Source: an uncultured Bacteroidota bacterium (lineage in GTDB: Bacteria; Bacteroidota; Bacteroidia; Bacteroidales; F082). Taken from it: a stretch of 47,903 nucleotides of DNA. The position numbers were made by a program, and so were the translations under genes. Under the pieces are notes generated by a model, which saw only the letters and a list, made by a program, of their open reading frames with translations, made no database searches and was not told where the DNA came from. The stretch is from contig CALCGQ010000384.1 in assembly GCA_937901015.1 (NCBI GenBank), positions 1 through 47,903 on the forward strand, read 5' to 3'. Numbering within the stretch: the stretch's first letter is position 1; every line of letters begins with the position of its first letter. This document shows, one piece after another, positions 14,834 to 37,885 of the stretch.

Positions 14834-14872
14834 AATGACTAATCTCCAATGACTAATCACCAATGACTAATG
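14834..14872. repeat. Three 14-bp-period tandem copies of AATGACTAAT(C/G)
   Basis: Copies at 14834-14844, 14848-14858 and 14862-14872; the last overlaps the purM start codon. Confidence 0.85.
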
Positions 14873-16039
14873 AGTAATAACCAATCAAGATATATGCAAC
14901 GAGGTGTAAGTGCCTCCAAAGAAGATGTGCATGCAGCTATTGCCAACTTGGATAAGGGTATTTTTCCAAATGCCTTTTGCAAAGTAATTCCTGACATATT
15001 AGGTGGAGATGCTGATTATTGCAATATAATGCACGCTGATGGTGCTGGAACAAAATCATCTTTAGCATACATGTATTGGAAAGAAACTGGTAATCTAGAT
15101 GTATGGAGAGGTATTGCTCAGGATGCCATTGTAATGAATCTTGATGATCTACTTTGTGTAGGAGTGATTGATGATATACTGTTATCATCAACTATTGGAA
15201 GAAATAAAAACCTAATTCCAGGAAGTGTAATTGGAGCCGTTATTAATGGAACTGAAGAGTTTCTTGAGAATATGAGATCCCTTGGAATTGGAATTTATCT
15301 AACCGGAGGTGAAACTGCCGATGTGGGTGATCTCGTACGCACAATGATCGTTGATTCTACTGTTACTGCCAGAATTAAACGTAAGGATGTTATTGAGACA
15401 AATATCCAACCTGGCGATGTTATTGTAGGACTATCATCCTATGGTAAAGCTACCTACGAAGATACATACAATGGTGGCATGGGTAGTAATGGACTTACTT
15501 CAGCTCGACACGATGTTTTTGGTAAGGAACTGGCAGTTAGGTATCCTGACAGTTTTGATCCTATCGTACCAAGTGATCTGGTATATTCGGGCAATATGAA
15601 ACTAACTCAACCAAGTGAAGTAGAAGGTATTGATGTTGGTAGTTTGGTCCTCTCTCCTACCAGGACATATGCACCAGTGATAAAAGTTATACTCGACCGA
15701 TTCCGTGATCAAGTCAATGGAATTATTCATTGTTCAGGAGGAGCCCAAACTAAAGTTCTTCATTTTATTGAGAACCTTCATATCATAAAGAACAATATGT
15801 TTCCCATCCCTCCATTATTTAAGCTTATCCAAGAACAATCAGGCACAAGTTGGGAAGAAATGTATAAAGTCTTCAATATGGGACATAGGATGGAGTTATA
15901 TGTACCTGAAAATATTAGCAAAGATATTATTGAAATATCACAATCCTTTAATATTGATGCTAAAATTATTGGAAGAGTTAGTCAATCTGACAAAAAGCGA
16001 CTTACCATTGATTCAGAATTTGGTCTATTTGAATACTAA
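14870..16039 (+). CDS. purM: Phosphoribosylformylglycinamidine cyclo-ligase (AIR synthase)
   Basis: YMQRGVSASKEDVHAAI, HADGAGTKSSLAYMYWKETG, IAQDAIVMNLDDLLCVG, GGETADVGDLVRT. Confidence 0.92.
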   Translation: MSNNQSRYMQRGVSASKEDVHAAIANLDKGIFPNAFCKVIPDILGGDADYCNIMHADGAGTKSSLAYMYWKETGNLDVWRGIAQDAIVMNLDDLLCVGVIDDILLSSTIGRNKNLIPGSVIGAVINGTEEFLENMRSLGIGIYLTGGETADVGDLVRTMIVDSTVTARIKRKDVIETNIQPGDVIVGLSSYGKATYEDTYNGGMGSNGLTSARHDVFGKELAVRYPDSFDPIVPSDLVYSGNMKLTQPSEVEGIDVGSLVLSPTRTYAPVIKVILDRFRDQVNGIIHCSGGAQTKVLHFIENLHIIKNNMFPIPPLFKLIQEQSGTSWEEMYKVFNMGHRMELYVPENISKDIIEISQSFNIDAKIIGRVSQSDKKRLTIDSEFGLFEY

Positions 16040-16142: not shown

Positions 16143-19100
16143 ATGGACTTTATGAATTATTTTAAATATATATCTCATTTTATATTATTTACACTGATAA
16201 CTACATCTACATTTCTTGTGGGGCAGAAATCAAACTATAATATAGAGCTAACTAAACAAGATTCAATTTATTCTGCTAATCTACCTATACTAAAGGTACC
16301 AGAAGGTTATAATAAACGCATTGCCTTACCATCTGAGTTAGACAATTCGATTCTTCCATTTATGAGGCCAGCCTTTAACCAACAAGGCTATTGGAACTGT
16401 GGTCAGTGTGCAGGTGTTGCATATAATTTTACATATGAAATAAACTTGGCTCGTGGAGTAATTGGTGATTGGATAGTAAACCAATACTCACAAAACTTTA
16501 CCTACAATTTCATGAATAGGGCCGGTGATTATGGAGTAAGCTATTTCAATAGTTTTGAAGCTATAAAAGCCTGTGGAAATCCAAATTTGGAAGACTATGG
16601 TGGAATGTACAACGTTTTGGGAAAAGGATGGAAATCAAGTTATTCATTGTATGAAAACGCAATGAGGAATAGGATAGTTGATGTATATGCCATTGATGTT
16701 AGTACTCCTGAAGGTTTAGAAACCCTAAAATACTGGTTACTTGACCACATGAATGGTTCTGAATATGGTGGTCTAGCAAATTTCTATTTTGGTTGGGGTT
16801 TCTCAAGTAACCTACCTCCTGAAAGTCCTGACTCAGGATTTCAAGTTGTTCTAGAATCACACCCCATAGCAACACATGCAATGACTATTGTAGGTTTTAA
16901 TGATTCAGTGAGATATGATGTTAATGGTGATGGTAAATTTACCAACAATATTGATCTTAATGAGGATGGTATTCTAGACATGAAAGATTGGGAAATTGGA
17001 GCTGTTAAATATATAAATAGCACAACATACGACGATGGTATCGGATATATGATGTATCGTGTATTGGCATTAGAAAGTGGACATGGTGGTATCTGGAATC
17101 AGCAAGTACACGTATTAAAAGTTGATGCAGAATATATACCTACTGCAAGTGTAAGAGTGAAGCTAAGGCATAATTCCAGAGAAAAAATTAAGCTAATTGC
17201 AGGTATTTCAACGAATTTAGATGATAATTATCCACAACATACAATGGATTTTCCAATTTTCAATTTTCAGGGAGGTGACTACTATATGCAAGGACTTGAG
17301 TTAGATGAAACATATAAAGATATCGAGTTGGCATTAGACATTAGCCCCTTATTTAGTTATTTAGAAGATGGACAGGAAGCAAAATTCTTTATTCAGGTGG
17401 TAGAAAATGATAAGGATAATACGGGAGAAGGTGAAGTACTTTACTATAGTCTCGTGATGGAATTGGATACATTGAACGAAATAGTTTGCCAACAAGTACC
17501 TGTTGATATTACAAACAACGCTATCACAACTTTACAATTAACTAATAATAACTCATTTGATAAAGTAAAAATAATTACGAATGATTTAGCTAAGGTTGAA
17601 GCAGGAATAATATCAGAATTTCAATTGGAGGCTCAAGGAGGTACCGAGCCTTATAAGTGGAGTATTGAAAATCAGTACAACCTGAATGAAGTTAACAATA
17701 GTTTTTCTGAAATAAACCAGACTAAACTTGAGTTTGAAAATAATTATGAAGCATCAACCAGTTTACAATTACCATTTGATTTCCCTTTCTATGGAGACAC
17801 TCTTGATAGTATAACAGTATTTATTGATGGGTTTATTATGTTTGAAGATAAACCATACCCCTACCCATATTTTACCGGTGAAGAATCTATCATTAAAACA
17901 CATAAAATGATTGCACCCTTCATATCAAATCTACTATTGCTAGAAGCAAAAGATGATGGTGTTTGGATTGATAGCAATAGCGAAAGAATCATAATAAGAT
18001 GGAAAGCATCAAGCGAATATTCCTGGGGAGATGAGGTGAATTTCAGTTTAACTTTACGCAAAGATGGAGGCATCGAAACCCATTATGGATCAATGAAATT
18101 TCCAGAGGAGATACATTGGGCATCGGGAGTTTCAGAGGGTGACAAGACGAATTACACTTTGTTAAATACAAATCAGAATCACGAAGAATTAACATACTCA
18201 TCCTTTTCTTATTTAAAATCAAATTTAATACCTGAAGTATTATCCATAACCGAAAACGGTTTGGTTTCTATTATGATAAATGAATCTATCAATAATTATC
18301 CTTTTGTTGTTCAGGTGAAAGATAGAAATGGAATAAGAGATTCAAAAGTATTCAACCAAACGGCTTCTAACTTTTCCGTTAATTTTCAGATAAACAACAA
18401 TGATAAATATGTTGATTATGATGAAATTTCATCAATAAATATGGATATTGAAAATACTTCAAACAAGAATTATAATAATGTCTTCATAAGACTTCATAGT
18501 ACGGATGAATTCTTAACACTTAGTGACTCTATCATTCAAGTGGGTAATTTGGATGCTGGTGAATACATTGAGATTAGTGAAGCTGCAACATTTTCATTTT
18601 CAACAGATGTACCTGACAGGTACAACTCAACCATTGAATGCGAGTTAATTACTGATAATGATATGCTTAGATCAAAAATAACGACTACAGTAAACGCACC
18701 TGAATTTAGGTTTTTATCAAAACAAATACTTGATGGCGATGATGGTGTACTATACCCAGGCGAAACTTCCACTATCAAATTATTAATTCAGAATACAGGT
18801 CATGCCATATCATCAAATGCATTTTCCGTACTTGGTAGTGAGTACAACAAAATTTATATTGATTTTGAAAGGTTAGAATTGGAAAATTTATACCCTGGAG
18901 ACACAATATCAGTATCGTACATTATAGCAGCTAAATTTGCTGTTCCCATGGGGACGTTGGCTACTCTGGATCTTGATATCTATTTGAACAACAAATTAGT
19001 TAATAAGATGACAACTGATATTAGGCTGGGACATATCCCCGTTCTGATATTAGACAGGGATCCCGACTTAACATCAGGTCTACAACTACGCTCAATGCTA

Positions 19101-19955
19101 GATGAGCTTGGATTACAAAATACTTTAACATCAACATTAAATGTAGATCTGAATAATTACTTATCAGTTTTTGTATGCATGGGTGGATTATTTAGTAATT
19201 ATACATTACAGGAAAAAGATTGGGTATTATTATCTGACTACCTCAACTCATCAGGAAATATGTATATGGAGGGTAGAACAATTTGGGGAAGCCCACAATA
19301 TCCAATCATCAATAACATGTTTAACATAAGAGCTGAACAACCTAGTTATTACTATCCTCTCGATACAGTTATTGGTGTTAATGATCTTTACACAAAAAAT
19401 ATGATGTTTGAGGTGAATGATGAAACACCTTATATAAATTATTTCATCCATCCAAAAGAAGGAGCTACCACTCTATTAAAAACCCAAACTCATGATAGCT
19501 CAGGTGTTACAATTGCTTACGACGAAGGCAGTTATAAGACCATAGGTTCGAGCCTGACAATTAACTCTTTTGTGGATACTGATTTAATAAGTACCAAAAA
19601 GAATTATTTACTTAGTATATTGGATTTCTTTGACTTAAAGAAATACATTTATGTGGATATAACTGAAAATTTTTCACCCTCGCTTTTAGATTTGGAAATA
19701 TATCCAAATCCTGCTAGTAGTTCGGTTACATTTAGTATTTCTAATAAGTTGAGTTCCGAGTCTTTTATCCAGATATTAGATCTGAATGGGATGATAATTT
19801 ATGAGAAACATATTACTGATACAAGAACAACTAGTTCCATAACAATTCCATGGGACGGGACTCATCCAAATGGAAGAAGAGCTTCACCGGGTTTATACCT
19901 AATAAGATATACTTCAGGTGAAGATGCAATCTCGAAAAAACTGATAATCAAGTAG
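16143..19955 (+). CDS. Papain-like (C1) cysteine protease, multidomain, T9SS type A sorting domain
   Basis: NQQGYWNCGQCAGVAYNF (Cys), ATHAMTIVGFND (His), VKYINSTTYDDGIGYMMYR (Asn); C-terminal YPNPASSSVTFSIS...GLYLIRYTSGEDAISKKLIIK. Confidence 0.8.
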   Translation: MDFMNYFKYISHFILFTLITTSTFLVGQKSNYNIELTKQDSIYSANLPILKVPEGYNKRIALPSELDNSILPFMRPAFNQQGYWNCGQCAGVAYNFTYEINLARGVIGDWIVNQYSQNFTYNFMNRAGDYGVSYFNSFEAIKACGNPNLEDYGGMYNVLGKGWKSSYSLYENAMRNRIVDVYAIDVSTPEGLETLKYWLLDHMNGSEYGGLANFYFGWGFSSNLPPESPDSGFQVVLESHPIATHAMTIVGFNDSVRYDVNGDGKFTNNIDLNEDGILDMKDWEIGAVKYINSTTYDDGIGYMMYRVLALESGHGGIWNQQVHVLKVDAEYIPTASVRVKLRHNSREKIKLIAGISTNLDDNYPQHTMDFPIFNFQGGDYYMQGLELDETYKDIELALDISPLFSYLEDGQEAKFFIQVVENDKDNTGEGEVLYYSLVMELDTLNEIVCQQVPVDITNNAITTLQLTNNNSFDKVKIITNDLAKVEAGIISEFQLEAQGGTEPYKWSIENQYNLNEVNNSFSEINQTKLEFENNYEASTSLQLPFDFPFYGDTLDSITVFIDGFIMFEDKPYPYPYFTGEESIIKTHKMIAPFISNLLLLEAKDDGVWIDSNSERIIIRWKASSEYSWGDEVNFSLTLRKDGGIETHYGSMKFPEEIHWASGVSEGDKTNYTLLNTNQNHEELTYSSFSYLKSNLIPEVLSITENGLVSIMINESINNYPFVVQVKDRNGIRDSKVFNQTASNFSVNFQINNNDKYVDYDEISSINMDIENTSNKNYNNVFIRLHSTDEFLTLSDSIIQVGNLDAGEYIEISEAATFSFSTDVPDRYNSTIECELITDNDMLRSKITTTVNAPEFRFLSKQILDGDDGVLYPGETSTIKLLIQNTGHAISSNAFSVLGSEYNKIYIDFERLELENLYPGDTISVSYIIAAKFAVPMGTLATLDLDIYLNNKLVNKMTTDIRLGHIPVLILDRDPDLTSGLQLRSMLDELGLQNTLTSTLNVDLNNYLSVFVCMGGLFSNYTLQEKDWVLLSDYLNSSGNMYMEGRTIWGSPQYPIINNMFNIRAEQPSYYYPLDTVIGVNDLYTKNMMFEVNDETPYINYFIHPKEGATTLLKTQTHDSSGVTIAYDEGSYKTIGSSLTINSFVDTDLISTKKNYLLSILDFFDLKKYIYVDITENFSPSLLDLEIYPNPASSSVTFSISNKLSSESFIQILDLNGMIIYEKHITDTRTTSSITIPWDGTHPNGRRASPGLYLIRYTSGEDAISKKLIIK
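16917..16993 (+). other. Tandem Ca-binding (dockerin/EF-hand-like) loops inside the C1 peptidase domain
   Basis: DVNGDGKFTNNIDLNEDGILDMKDWE: DxNxDGxxxxxD and DxNxDGxxDxxDW patterns. Confidence 0.65.
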
Positions 19956-19957
19956 GC

Positions 19958-20760
19958 ATGAATAGAGGTCATGGTTTTATAGTTCTTTTAATAATTTTTC
20001 ACTTATCATCCTTTTCTCAAAATATTGACAGATGGACTGCAGGTAGTGCTAGGCAACTAAACGGAGAAGTAGCTTCACTAATTTGCTTTATCTCAACACC
20101 AAATGATAACTGGTCAGAATCAGAAAAGGATAGCGTATTGAGATATATTAAAAAAAGTGATCGTTGGTTAATAGACCAAGCCTTAAGTTACAATGTTAAA
20201 TTAAATATTAGTAATTATATATTAAATAATGGGACCGACATTAAGTTCGATAGTATTGAACAAGGTACAGGTAGTGGAAAAGAAAGAGTTGACTGGATAT
20301 ATAATACATTACAAAAACTTGGTTATAAAAATTCAAAGAAAGCAGCCAAAAAGCTAAAAAAAAATACGATTCGGATAATCTTCAGATGTTAATTATTGCT
20401 AAAGGTAATGGAAGATCCTATGCAATTAGATATGGATCAGGAATAAATAAAAAGAAGTATTTTTTGGAGGGAATGATGCTTTACAGTGGAAACTTAGTAT
20501 ACAACCCCAATCATTTTGCAGCGGTCTATTCTCATGAATTACTACACCTATATGGGGCATGGGATCTATATGCAACCTATGCTCAAACAATCGACAGACA
20601 AGCTAGAGCAACCGAATTATATCCCAACGATATAATGCTTCGTGTTGATCAGAATCAAGGTCCATTAAAAGTAGATAAACTTACGGCATGGCTAATAGGA
20701 TGGAACCAAACTGAAGAAGAACATTTTGAATGGTTCAGACCATCTGACTATAATAAATAG
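19958..20760 (+). CDS. Metzincin-like zinc metalloprotease, split by a -1 frameshift (ORFs 19958..20392 and 20386..20760)
   Basis: Signal peptide in ORF 1; HELLHLYGAWD (HExxHxxGxxD) and Met-turn-like PNDIMLRV in ORF 2; the frames join at the A9 tract 20356-20364. Confidence 0.75.
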
Positions 20761-21157: not shown

Positions 21158-22087
21158 ATGGAAAGAATAGTTTTATTTGGAGGTAGCGGTTTCATTGGTA
21201 AACATGCTGTAAAGCAACTAATGGGGAAATATGAGATTGTTATTGTTTCACGTCACAAACGCACTACTTCTGAAGAATTTGGTGAAGAAGTAAATGTATT
21301 AAGACTCCGTAGAAGTGATATTTCAAAGATCACTGAACAAATAAATGGTGCTGCTGCGGTGATAAATCTTGCTGGTGAGAATGTGGGAGAAAGGTGGACC
21401 TCATCGAAGATGGACAAGATAAAAAAAAGCAGACTTGATGTGGATAGCATTATCGTTCGAGCAGTAACAAATGCGGAGATAAAACCAAAAGTTGTTATTC
21501 AAGGATCTGCAATTGGAATATATGGTAATAGCAGAAATACCATTGATATTAATGAAGAAACAACTCTCGGACAAAGAGGGTTTCTAACTAAAGTAGCAAT
21601 AAGCCATGAGGAAGCATTAAACCAATTGGAAAAGGTTACCCGGGTTGTTTATATAAGAACAGGAATGGTGCTTGGTGGTGATGGTGGTGCTCTTCCAAAA
21701 TTATCGGCTCAATTTAAATTATACCTAGGCGGAAAGCTGGGGAGTGGAAATCAATGGTCATCATGGATTCACATTGACGATGAGGTAAGAGCCATAAAGT
21801 TTTTAATCGAAAATGATAGCTGTTCCGGAGCATATAATCTCACAGCACCAAATCCAGTTACTAACAAAGAATTTACGAAAAAGCTGGCCAATACACTAAA
21901 ACGACCACATTTCATGTCAGCTCCTGCTTTCGTTCTTAGACTTTTCCTCGGAACAATGGCAAACGAACTGCTTATAACTGGACTAAAAGTTATTCCCACA
22001 AGACTTATTGATGCTGGTTTCAAGTTTAAATATTCAAAAATAGAAGATGCTTTTGAAAACATCTTTCGTGAAAATATTGTAGAATGA
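21158..22087 (+). CDS. TIGR01777-family (SDR39U1-like) NAD(P)-binding epimerase
   Basis: VLFGGSGFIGKHAVKQL; INLAGENVGERWTSSKMDKIKKSR; IRTGMVLGGDGGALPKL. Confidence 0.92.
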   Translation: MERIVLFGGSGFIGKHAVKQLMGKYEIVIVSRHKRTTSEEFGEEVNVLRLRRSDISKITEQINGAAAVINLAGENVGERWTSSKMDKIKKSRLDVDSIIVRAVTNAEIKPKVVIQGSAIGIYGNSRNTIDINEETTLGQRGFLTKVAISHEEALNQLEKVTRVVYIRTGMVLGGDGGALPKLSAQFKLYLGGKLGSGNQWSSWIHIDDEVRAIKFLIENDSCSGAYNLTAPNPVTNKEFTKKLANTLKRPHFMSAPAFVLRLFLGTMANELLITGLKVIPTRLIDAGFKFKYSKIEDAFENIFRENIVE

Positions 22088-33352: not shown

Positions 33353-36300
33353 TTGAAGAATAAATCTGGCAACAAAAATATTAAAAAAAAACTTCTCAAG
33401 TTCATCTTATATATGCTTCTTGTGATTTCGATAATACCAGTATCTCTAACACTGCTTTTTCAAAGTCCAATTGTTCAAACTATCACCGCACGACTTGCAG
33501 CTGATTATTTGTCAAAAGACCTAGATCAAGAAATTAGAATTAATAGTATTAAAATTGGAATATTTAGTGGAATTAATGTTGTTGGTTTAGATGTTCGTGA
33601 TCACCATAACAATACACTTATTGGTATAGGTAGGCTAAGTGCATTGCCAGAACTCTCTAACTTTAGTTTTTCAAACCTTAGATTCGAAACCATTAAAATT
33701 GACAGTGTTCAGTTTATTATGGGTTCCTATAAAGATGAAGACAATAGTAATTTAAACCTGTTAATTAATAGCTTTAGAAGTGAGAGCAGCAGTGGAAACA
33801 ATGCAGAATTTCGACTATATGTGAATAGTTTGTCGGTTACAAATTCAAAATTTAATCTGTTTAATGAAAATCGAGATTACGATGGTGGCGATAAAACCAT
33901 AGATTACGCAAATATTATAATTGATAATATCGATGGAAACATTGACTACTTTACCATTGTTAACGACTCCCTTAACTTCAGGGTTAATGAGTTAACGGCC
34001 AATGAAAAATCTGGAATACAGATTAAGAAGATGAGTAGCGACATCTCAATTTCATCAAGTAGTTTGAAAACAACTAATGGTTTAATTGCATTAAACAATT
34101 CCAATATTGACCTTGATTTTGAAATGTTATATTCCAGTTATCAATCGATGAGTTATTACATTGATTCCGTTGTGATGATTGGTGATATTCGCCCAACTAC
34201 AATTGACATGGCTGATATTGGCTATTTTGCTGATATCCTTTTTGAGATGCCCAATATTGTAGGTGTGACAGGAAAAATGAAAGGTACCGTAACTGATCTT
34301 GTTGGAACTGACCTAAAGATTAAATATGGTGATAATACCAGAGTATCGGGAGATGTTAAGTTTGTTGGATTACCAGACTTTTTTACTTCATATATGACTG
34401 GTGAAAATCTAAGACTTACATCGAATTCAAAAGATATATCAGCCTTCTTTTTACCCATAGAAAGCAAACACATCGATGTATCCAGTATACTACCTGAAGG
34501 TGAGCAAGTAACAGTTTTCGCTGATTTTAAAGGATATTATGAAGACTTTAATAGTAAGCTTAATGTGGTTCTTAATCATGGTTCCATTGTAGCAGATATT
34601 GATTATAAAACAAAGAATAATTATACAACTATCAATGCTTCATTGGTATCTGACAGTCTTGCAATTGGCAAGTTCCTGAATATGAATGATATTCTTGGGC
34701 AAACCAGTTTTGATCTAAAAGTAAATGTCGCAGGTGATGATATGTATAAGTTTGACTATAATGTAAGTGGTAAGATAACTAATACAGACATACTAGGGTA
34801 CAACTATCGCAGGATCGGAGTAATTGGAAGCTATATTGATGATTCCGTTAAAGCGGAGATTAGAGTTGGTGACAAAAACCTAATGATGGTTTCAAATATA
34901 ATTGCTGATATTGGTAATAATCAGGTATATGATTTATCTGCAAATATTGTTAAGGCAAACCTTCACAAACTACACCTTTGGAGTGATCAACCATTAACTA
35001 TTAGCAGCATAATAGATGCTAATATTGTTGGAACGGATATTAAAACTCTTGATGCAGATATCTTTCTTAAAAACAACACGATTTCTTTTACTAAGCATGA
35101 ATATAAACTAGATAGTATATCACTTACTAAGCATACCAATTCAGATATGTATACAATTACTGAACTTAGTTCAGGTGTAATTGATGCTACTGCCAAAGGT
35201 GAATATGATTTATCCACAGTATCAAATAGCTTTATCGAGTTAATTGATAACTATTTTGATATTATACCAGGAGATGACTCCACAAGGATTAAAGTTGACA
35301 AAAACATTGAATTGGATATGGTAATTCGTAAACCAAAGATATTAACGGAACAATTCTTTTCTGGAATTGCAATCGCACCAAATACTAGTTTGAAATCAAA
35401 AATAGACTTTACAACCAACAAACTGGATTTGGATTTGATTTCCAAGAAAATAAGAATCAATGACGTTATTTTGGATACAAACAAATTAATCGTATTCACC
35501 CATCATGATAAAATCATAAGTGAATTTTCAATTGATAACCTTATTCTTAAAGATAGCACCCCTACCGATAGTGTAGTACTAGGTATCGATAATTTTAGCA
35601 TATCTTCCAGAATTGGGGACGACTCAATAACTTATGGTATCAACTGGAAAAACTGGAACCAGACAACCCGAAACTCAGGTGAAATTGAAGGTTATATTGC
35701 AAGAAACAATGACTCTACTCTATTTAACTTTGGAAAAGCCAATGTGTTTATCAATGATTTAATGTGGGATATTGACACTAATAATCTGGTACTTATGTAT
35801 GATAACAAAGTCTACTTTCACGACTTCTTCATAAATGCTGGCAAATCTAGGTTTAAACTTATTGGAACATTACCCAGAACAGAAAATGATTCACTCATGG
35901 CTCAGTTCAAAGACTGGGACTTGTCAAACTTTGATCTAATTACCAAACCCATGAATTTAGACCTTGATGGTCAAATTAATGGAGAGCTAAAACTTAGTAT
36001 AATTCATGATAACCCAACATTAATATCAAATATTAATATTACAGATTTAGGGTTAAATGATGAATATCTAGGTGATGCAAACATTATTAACACTTGGGAC
36101 AACTCTACTAATTCTATATTTCTTAAGTCACAAATAATTAGAAAAGGGAATGTGGGCAAAGGAGAAATTTTCAAAGCTGACGGATATTACCAACCTCTTA
36201 AAGACAAGGATAATCTAAAGATTGATGTATCCTTCGATAAGTTTAAAATCAGAACCTTCGAGCCATTTTTATCAAGCTTTGTAAATGAAATAGAAGGTAC

Positions 36301-37885
36301 AACGTCAGGGAATCTAAAAATCCGAGGAAGCTCTAAAAAACCAATAATTGAAGGATCAGCTAATATGCAGAGAGCAGGGTTGAGAGTTGTATACCTAAAT
36401 ACTAAATACTCTTTTACAAACTCCATCGATTTTGTTAAGAATGGTGTAACTTTCGACAAATTAGTAATTTATGACACTCTTGGAAATCAAGCTCAAATAA
36501 ACGGAAGTCTAACTCACAATTACTTTTCAGACCCTAAGTTTGATATTGAAATTACAACTCCCGGGCTATTATTCTTTAATACTTCTCAACATATGAATGA
36601 CCTATATTACGGGTCGGCAATTGCCTCAGGCAAAATTGATATTACAGGTAGCCCCACTGATGTGGATTTAAATATAAATGTGAGAACACAGCGTGGAACT
36701 TCCGTTGTCCTTCCAATGGATTATTCGGTGGAGATATCCGATAAGGACTATATAATATTCACAAAAAAAGCTGTTGACACAATAGTTGATGAAAATCAAT
36801 TCGATATCAGTGCTACAAAAAAAGAAGATGAGTTGCAGTATAATATCAATGTTAATTTAGAGGTTACACCAATTGCTCAGGTAGGAATAAACCTACCGGA
36901 TGATATGGGTACAATTTCTGTAAGAGGAAATTCTAATTTAGCAATGGATGTTAATTCAAACGGTGAATTTAGCCTAGTAGGCGATTACATTGTTGAAGAT
37001 GGACTGTTCGCCTTTAGCATTGGAAATCTGGTTAGTAAGCGTTTCTCCATAGTTAATGGAGGCAGAATTTCCTGGACGGGAAACCCCTACTCTGCTCAAG
37101 TAAATATTAAAGGTCTTTATAAAGTAAAAACAAGCTTATCAAGCTTAGGTGTTCAAATAGATACTACCGCATCATACAAGAACAAAGTAACCGTAGAATG
37201 TTATGTAGTGTTAACAGGTGAATTATTGAATCCAAATATAAAATTTGAGATTCAGATACCTGATCTTGATCCTGACTTTCAAAGGGCTGTTTTTTCTGAG
37301 TTAGATACCACCAATACCGCAATGATGAATCAACAAATGATTTCATTATTAGTGTTGGGAACCTTTAGTTTCAATAATGCTGCAAATGTTAGCTTACAAT
37401 CATCATATTATAATGTTATTGCCAACCAGCTAAGCAGTATGCTTTCGCAGATAAGTGATAATGTGGATATTGGGCTCAATTACAAGCCCGGTGATAATGT
37501 ATCACAAGAAGAGTTTGAAGTAGCTTTATCAACTCAGTTATTTGACGATAGGCTTACAATCGATGGGAATTTTGGTATGACCTATGATCGAACGGATCAA
37601 AGTGCAAGTAATATCGTTGGAGATGTTGATGTTGGCTATAAGCTAACCCCAGATGGTCAGTGGATATTAAAAGTATTCAACCACTCCAATGTAAACTCAT
37701 GGTATAATTATAATAATTATGATCAAACATCTCCTTATACTCAAGGAGTAGGTATTGCATTCCGAAAAGACTTTAATAATATTCGTGATTTATTCAAATC
37801 AAAGAAGAAAAAATCAGAAAAGAAAGAAAGTAAAAAAGTAAATGGGGAGTCTAAGTTGCAAGAGGAAGACGAAACAGGAAAATAG
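33353..37885 (+). CDS. tamB: TamB-like translocation/assembly module (AsmA-like, 1510 aa), probable TTG start
   Basis: N-terminal TM, long repetitive beta-rich region, C-terminal DUF490-type segment (FDIEITTPGLLFFNTSQ...DGQWILKVFNHSN). Confidence 0.85.
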   Translation: MKNKSGNKNIKKKLLKFILYMLLVISIIPVSLTLLFQSPIVQTITARLAADYLSKDLDQEIRINSIKIGIFSGINVVGLDVRDHHNNTLIGIGRLSALPELSNFSFSNLRFETIKIDSVQFIMGSYKDEDNSNLNLLINSFRSESSSGNNAEFRLYVNSLSVTNSKFNLFNENRDYDGGDKTIDYANIIIDNIDGNIDYFTIVNDSLNFRVNELTANEKSGIQIKKMSSDISISSSSLKTTNGLIALNNSNIDLDFEMLYSSYQSMSYYIDSVVMIGDIRPTTIDMADIGYFADILFEMPNIVGVTGKMKGTVTDLVGTDLKIKYGDNTRVSGDVKFVGLPDFFTSYMTGENLRLTSNSKDISAFFLPIESKHIDVSSILPEGEQVTVFADFKGYYEDFNSKLNVVLNHGSIVADIDYKTKNNYTTINASLVSDSLAIGKFLNMNDILGQTSFDLKVNVAGDDMYKFDYNVSGKITNTDILGYNYRRIGVIGSYIDDSVKAEIRVGDKNLMMVSNIIADIGNNQVYDLSANIVKANLHKLHLWSDQPLTISSIIDANIVGTDIKTLDADIFLKNNTISFTKHEYKLDSISLTKHTNSDMYTITELSSGVIDATAKGEYDLSTVSNSFIELIDNYFDIIPGDDSTRIKVDKNIELDMVIRKPKILTEQFFSGIAIAPNTSLKSKIDFTTNKLDLDLISKKIRINDVILDTNKLIVFTHHDKIISEFSIDNLILKDSTPTDSVVLGIDNFSISSRIGDDSITYGINWKNWNQTTRNSGEIEGYIARNNDSTLFNFGKANVFINDLMWDIDTNNLVLMYDNKVYFHDFFINAGKSRFKLIGTLPRTENDSLMAQFKDWDLSNFDLITKPMNLDLDGQINGELKLSIIHDNPTLISNINITDLGLNDEYLGDANIINTWDNSTNSIFLKSQIIRKGNVGKGEIFKADGYYQPLKDKDNLKIDVSFDKFKIRTFEPFLSSFVNEIEGTTSGNLKIRGSSKKPIIEGSANMQRAGLRVVYLNTKYSFTNSIDFVKNGVTFDKLVIYDTLGNQAQINGSLTHNYFSDPKFDIEITTPGLLFFNTSQHMNDLYYGSAIASGKIDITGSPTDVDLNINVRTQRGTSVVLPMDYSVEISDKDYIIFTKKAVDTIVDENQFDISATKKEDELQYNINVNLEVTPIAQVGINLPDDMGTISVRGNSNLAMDVNSNGEFSLVGDYIVEDGLFAFSIGNLVSKRFSIVNGGRISWTGNPYSAQVNIKGLYKVKTSLSSLGVQIDTTASYKNKVTVECYVVLTGELLNPNIKFEIQIPDLDPDFQRAVFSELDTTNTAMMNQQMISLLVLGTFSFNNAANVSLQSSYYNVIANQLSSMLSQISDNVDIGLNYKPGDNVSQEEFEVALSTQLFDDRLTIDGNFGMTYDRTDQSASNIVGDVDVGYKLTPDGQWILKVFNHSNVNSWYNYNNYDQTSPYTQGVGIAFRKDFNNIRDLFKSKKKKSEKKESKKVNGESKLQEEDETGK

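Follow-up and report, generated by a model that had tools for sequence, protein, structure and literature searches.

A metzincin-like protease gene whose frame breaks in a run of nine A's has probably been inactivated recently in an uncultured Bacteroidota bacterium

When the active site of an enzyme lies beyond a frame break, and the break falls on a slippery run of A's, is the gene recoded or is it being lost? The question is raised by a protease gene in the 47,903 nucleotide stretch analysed here (hereafter the window), which is contig C384 of genome G000, evidently a metagenome assembly (MAG) of 4.08 Mb in 411 contigs, 84.85% complete. The original prediction described a protease split in two ORFs at this point, and listed recoding, slippage, phase variation and a plain indel as causes without choosing among them. 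The elements of the locus are the following.

14870..16039, + strand: AIR-synthase-related protein, left anchor of the locus for presence/absence scoring (gene present in 8/8 congeners)
16143..19955, + strand: secreted protein of 1270 aa whose C-terminus bears a type IX secretion signal; 2 bases separate its end from the protease start
19958..20392, + strand: ORF of the N-terminal half; its N-terminus resembles a signal peptide, it has no active site, and it matches residues ~1-135 of intact homologues at ~33-50% identity
20329..20760, + strand: open region of the -1 frame with the C-terminal (catalytic) half, matching the corresponding half of intact homologues at 52-61% identity
20356..20364, + strand: A9 tract, point of frame change, containing the in-phase heptamer A_AAA_AAA (20356-20362)
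20533..20565, + strand: zinc-binding motif HELLHLYGAWD (HExxHxxGxxD), with both His, the Gly and the Asp conserved in every one of 18 aligned members
20623..20637, + strand: Met-turn-like PNDIM, with P, I and M invariant across the same 18 members
21158..22087, + strand: NAD-dependent epimerase/DUF1731 protein, used as right anchor when scoring presence/absence at the locus in congeners

The A9 tract, the zero frame across it (CTA AAA AAA AAT at 20354-20365) and the phasing of A_AAA_AAA for a -1 shift were all confirmed. ORF 19958-20392 leaves the homologous frame at the tract, and reaches a stop nine codons past it. The C-terminal ORF, counted from an internal ATG, is 20386-20760, the same frame being open from about 20329. 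When the intact orthologue of congener G001 was compared to the window, its residues 11-127 aligned in frame 2, and its residues 131-271 then aligned in frame 1. Since intact homologues match one frame and then the other with consecutive residues, the two ORFs are, on the strength of these alignments, halves of one protein and not a chance arrangement, as had been proposed. The metzincin-like active site was likewise found where it had been placed, downstream of the break: HELLHLYGAWD and PNDIM are both in ORF 20386-20760, and absent from 19958-20392.

Searches of the two halves against Pfam, NCBIfam, PHROGs and PDB sequences returned weak hits only, and no family was matched. An alignment of 18 members contained 11 invariant columns, which include the zinc motif residues listed above and the Met of an invariant P-x-x-I-M, placed 24 residues after the motif Asp. 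The HExxHxxGxxD motif is insufficient to define a metzincin, because the Asp-zincins (MA(D)) share it, while having no Met-turn (PMC3890501). Assignment to the Asp-zincins was considered and set aside, given the conserved PxxIM. The intact G001 orthologue was chosen for folding, the window gene having been searched as separate halves, and its AlphaFold2 model reached a pLDDT of 86.4 and a pTM of 0.84. Foldseek comparison of this model with the PDB gave 21 hits at E<=1e-3, all of them metzincins, with TM-scores of about 0.4-0.46; TACE, ecarin and ADAM10 came first, and snake-venom enzymes and Bacteroides fragilis MP-II were also present. The metzincin assignment is therefore supported by the Met-turn-like sequence and the predicted fold, and together with the motif these point to an uncatalogued metzincin-like (MA(M)) family. 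The intact protein is presumably an active zinc protease.

Conserved position and direction of the shift served as the clustering criterion for recoding genes in PMC3711429. Among 174 genomes of the family, 16 had a match to the protease. Each of the 12 close homologues is one uninterrupted ORF of about 271 aa; their C halves are 52-61% identical to that of the window copy, and none has an A or T run of 7 or more at the break site. Genome G199 contributes two further intact copies, more distant, also in single open frames. Broken copies in the family were confined to the window genome and its congener G006; a third truncated candidate, in G213, was rejected, the gene being cut by a contig end. 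In G006 (L005, G006:C89, about 1405-1408), the break lies about 22 codons upstream of the window break, at GGGG, a short G run with no tract comparable to A9, and in the opposite direction, so that a +1 shift would be needed there. Neither position nor direction of the break was thus conserved. At the order level, 34 of 393 genomes had a match, nearly all in single frames, the copy of G220 being in two pieces in different frames. A scan of genome contigs recovered the G001 copy only.

The order-level search also revealed a change in the motif itself. Of the 18 order-level members with a readable motif, 12 (L172, L173, L175, L177-L183, L185 and L187) have HNxxHxxGxxD, where Asn stands in place of the catalytic Glu, and both the rest of the motif and the Met-turn-like sequence are retained. 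From their sequences, these relatives are possibly zinc-binding non-enzymes. The catalytic Glu was present in the family-level copies examined.

Could the break be programmed? An in-phase heptamer, an active site made only in the shifted product and a tract prone to length changes are what one would expect of a -1 frameshift, or of on/off phase variation, evolved to control the protease. However, 248 intact ORFs of the G000 genome contain 46 in-phase copies of A_AAA_AAA, and the heptamer alone is therefore no signal. The most efficient heptamers in E. coli frameshift at high levels when stimulators are present (PMC4066793). We looked for such a stimulator in the 88 nt from the tract on: the predicted RNA (MFE -11.1, against a shuffle mean of -12.1, z=+0.36, pseudoknot-free folding) was no better than its shuffles. 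Since, in addition, no homologue conserves the position and direction of the break, and G006 would require a +1 shift at a different place, we consider programmed control very unlikely, and the least probable of the explanations weighed here.

The strongest evidence for gene loss came from the locus in eight congeners. At this one syntenic locus, the protease is intact in one (G001), broken in two (G000 and G006) and absent from five. Its usual position is downstream of an OmpA/TPR protein and of the AIR-synthase-related protein. The intact gene of G001 lies between the AIR-synthase-related gene and the epimerase, and in G000 and G006 the broken copies follow a gene for a large T9SS-secreted protein. 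The T9SS-signal protein is present in G004 as well, where there is no protease. In G003 and G005, another large gene, on the opposite strand, is found in place of the T9SS protein, again with no protease. Finally, in G002 and G007 nothing but a short gap separates the anchors, the left anchor of G007 being a partial gene at a contig end. As a side observation, the T9SS-signal protein stands directly before the protease only in the two congeners with a broken copy.

The window was then compared with G006 over about 43 kb. All 31 common genes were in one frame both ways, and the protease was the only broken one, in both genomes, as revealed with the intact G001 protein as query. Assuming one break per genome and about 43 kb of coding sequence, we estimate at about 2% the probability that a second random break falls in the same 0.8-kb gene. 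That the same gene was hit in both G000 and G006, which chance would so rarely produce, argues for a gene that can be lost. A split gene, intact homologues, an independent breakage and absence at the same locus were thus all observed.

We asked whether the catalytic half had decayed since the break. The original prediction had held that intact homologues, together with decay elsewhere in this copy, would make it an error or a pseudogene. Intact homologues do exist, but the window C half contained no second lesion: zinc ligands, Met-turn-like sequence and frame are all retained. Compared to G001, it differs at 40, 23 and 61 sites in codon positions 1, 2 and 3, so that the third-position excess is kept. 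Omega for the C half was 0.127 on the G000 branch, where omega=1 was weakly rejected (2dlnL 4.28), and 0.016 on the G006 branch, where it was strongly rejected (2dlnL 23.4); other branches gave 0.006 (G001, L002), 0.014 (L013) and 0.031 (L009). All these values are rough, as synonymous sites are near saturation and base composition differs among genomes. The higher omega of G000 hints at relaxed selection, although its difference from the four other branches (0.006-0.031) was not significant (2dlnL 0.6). Branch lengths had suggested a faster evolution of the C half in broken copies, and this was set aside: Tajima tests were mostly not significant, relative-rate tests for the G000 C half were not significant, and codon models showed no significant difference. 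Because both C halves are still constrained, the breaks of G000 and G006 must have arisen late on their branches, unless they are bypassed or are not real.

A bypass could take the form of slippage. Runs of at least nine A's were found 3 times in ORFs of the G000 genome, where 20.1 were expected from synonymous shuffles, and runs of at least nine T's 0 times for 8.3 expected. Such a depletion of long A runs would follow from their being harmful or hypermutable. In a large fraction of bacterial genomes, it is also at runs of nine that selection against slippage becomes visible (PMC1088944), and the two facts together make slippage probable in G000. Two other long runs were noted. A second A9, at 33383-33391 of the window, lies about 30 bases inside a TTG-started TamB-like ORF (33353-37885) whose start is uncertain. 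The longest coding A run in the sampled genome, of 11 bases, is at about 8180 of L060 (G000:C381), in an intact 897-aa ORF.

Transcriptional slippage on the A9, or unstimulated -1 slippage on A_AAA_AAA, might accordingly restore a fraction of the product and leave the gene partly functional. The length of the tract, the phase of the heptamer and the constraint on the C half are all consistent with such a leaky rescue, for which a precedent exists: in Blochmannia and Buchnera, homopolymer frameshifts are reported or proposed to be corrected by slippage (PMC3017870). On the other side, the tract is unconserved and bears no sign of use, the G006 break has no comparable tract, and the repeated complete losses suggest a dispensable product. 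We therefore judge leaky rescue improbable. A stronger version, in which the protease is slippage-controlled or a contingency gene, the A9 setting a low, mixed level of full-length protein and the G006 break reflecting the same on/off lifestyle instead of loss, seems more doubtful still.

There remains the third alternative, that the break is unreal. All or most cells would then have an intact gene, the tract length in the MAG being wrong or representing one of several alleles. The break does fall in the type of tract most prone to length variation, in a fragmented MAG, and the C half carries no other lesion. To see how frequent such breaks are, about 362 kb of the G000 genome was compared with about 1.5 Mb from relatives. 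The homologous alignments, covering about 107 kb and weighted to the window (38.6 kb), contained one clear frame break, that of the protease. An ab initio scan of the 362 kb flagged a further gene, nnr (L036, G000:C1, 1103-2571; YjeF_N + Carb_kinase), broken near 1290 at a site with no long homopolymer; Pfam YjeF_N runs through two frames there, which confirmed the break. As nnr encodes a widespread repair enzyme, its broken state suggests that some breaks in the G000 assembly may be errors. Another candidate, L070, was set aside, two genes being seemingly joined in G049. Against a consensus error or population polymorphism stands the rarity of frame breaks, with one clear case in about 107 kb; moreover, an error would leave the G006 break and the absence from five congeners unexplained. 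We hold this alternative to be possible, if unlikely.

Among the causes originally listed side by side, a plain indel is favoured over recoding, slippage and phase variation, because the break is absent from 12 homologues, G006 is broken elsewhere, five congeners have no gene, and no stimulator was found. The window copy is thus probably a recently inactivated gene of a dispensable, secreted, single-domain metzincin-type protease that was repeatedly lost in the genus. According to this gene-loss scenario, a one-base change at the run of A's would have put the catalytic half out of frame, and normal translation would yield an exported fragment of about 144 aa predicted to lack the active site. 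The frame break of G000, the different break of G006 and the absence from five congeners would be separate loss events. We infer that the cell itself carries the base change and that selection on the gene is relaxed. We rank a recent null allele of a dispensable protease as most likely, ahead of a consensus error or a population variant, with leaky slippage in third place. More generally, an AT-rich genome can contain an in-phase slippery heptamer that mimics recoding, and here the comparison of relatives points to gene loss. As a by-product, the analysis brings out what appears to be an uncatalogued family of secreted metzincin-like proteins in Bacteroidota, one subgroup of which has Asn in place of the catalytic Glu.

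The protein resembles known metzincins (MA(M)) by its HExxHxxGxxD motif, its downstream Met-turn-like PNDIM, and a predicted fold nearest to TACE, ADAM10 and the snake-venom reprolysins (adamalysin/ADAM type). It differs from them in matching no sequence family, in TM-scores of only about 0.4-0.46, and in having Asp as the third ligand. With B. fragilis metalloproteinase-II and fragilysin it shares a Bacteroidota metzincin domain, by fold only (Foldseek); identity across the aligned part is about 10-14%, with E-values weaker than those of the best ADAM hits, and nothing in the protease data pointed to a toxin.

As for the break, genes with programmed -1 frameshifting, such as IS elements and dnaX (PMC4066793, PMC3711429), also have an X_XXY_YYZ heptamer in the right phase, but the window gene is neither a mobile element nor dnaX, its site and direction are unconserved, and a stimulator was not found. 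The Blochmannia and Buchnera genes (PMC3017870) are alike in having a single poly(A) indel in an otherwise constrained gene, and in that slippage might still yield some product. Replication genes are among those cases, some of the tracts occur in more than one species, and long A tracts are far more abundant in the genomes concerned, whereas the A9 of the protease gene is found in one genome only, and most congeners have lost the gene.
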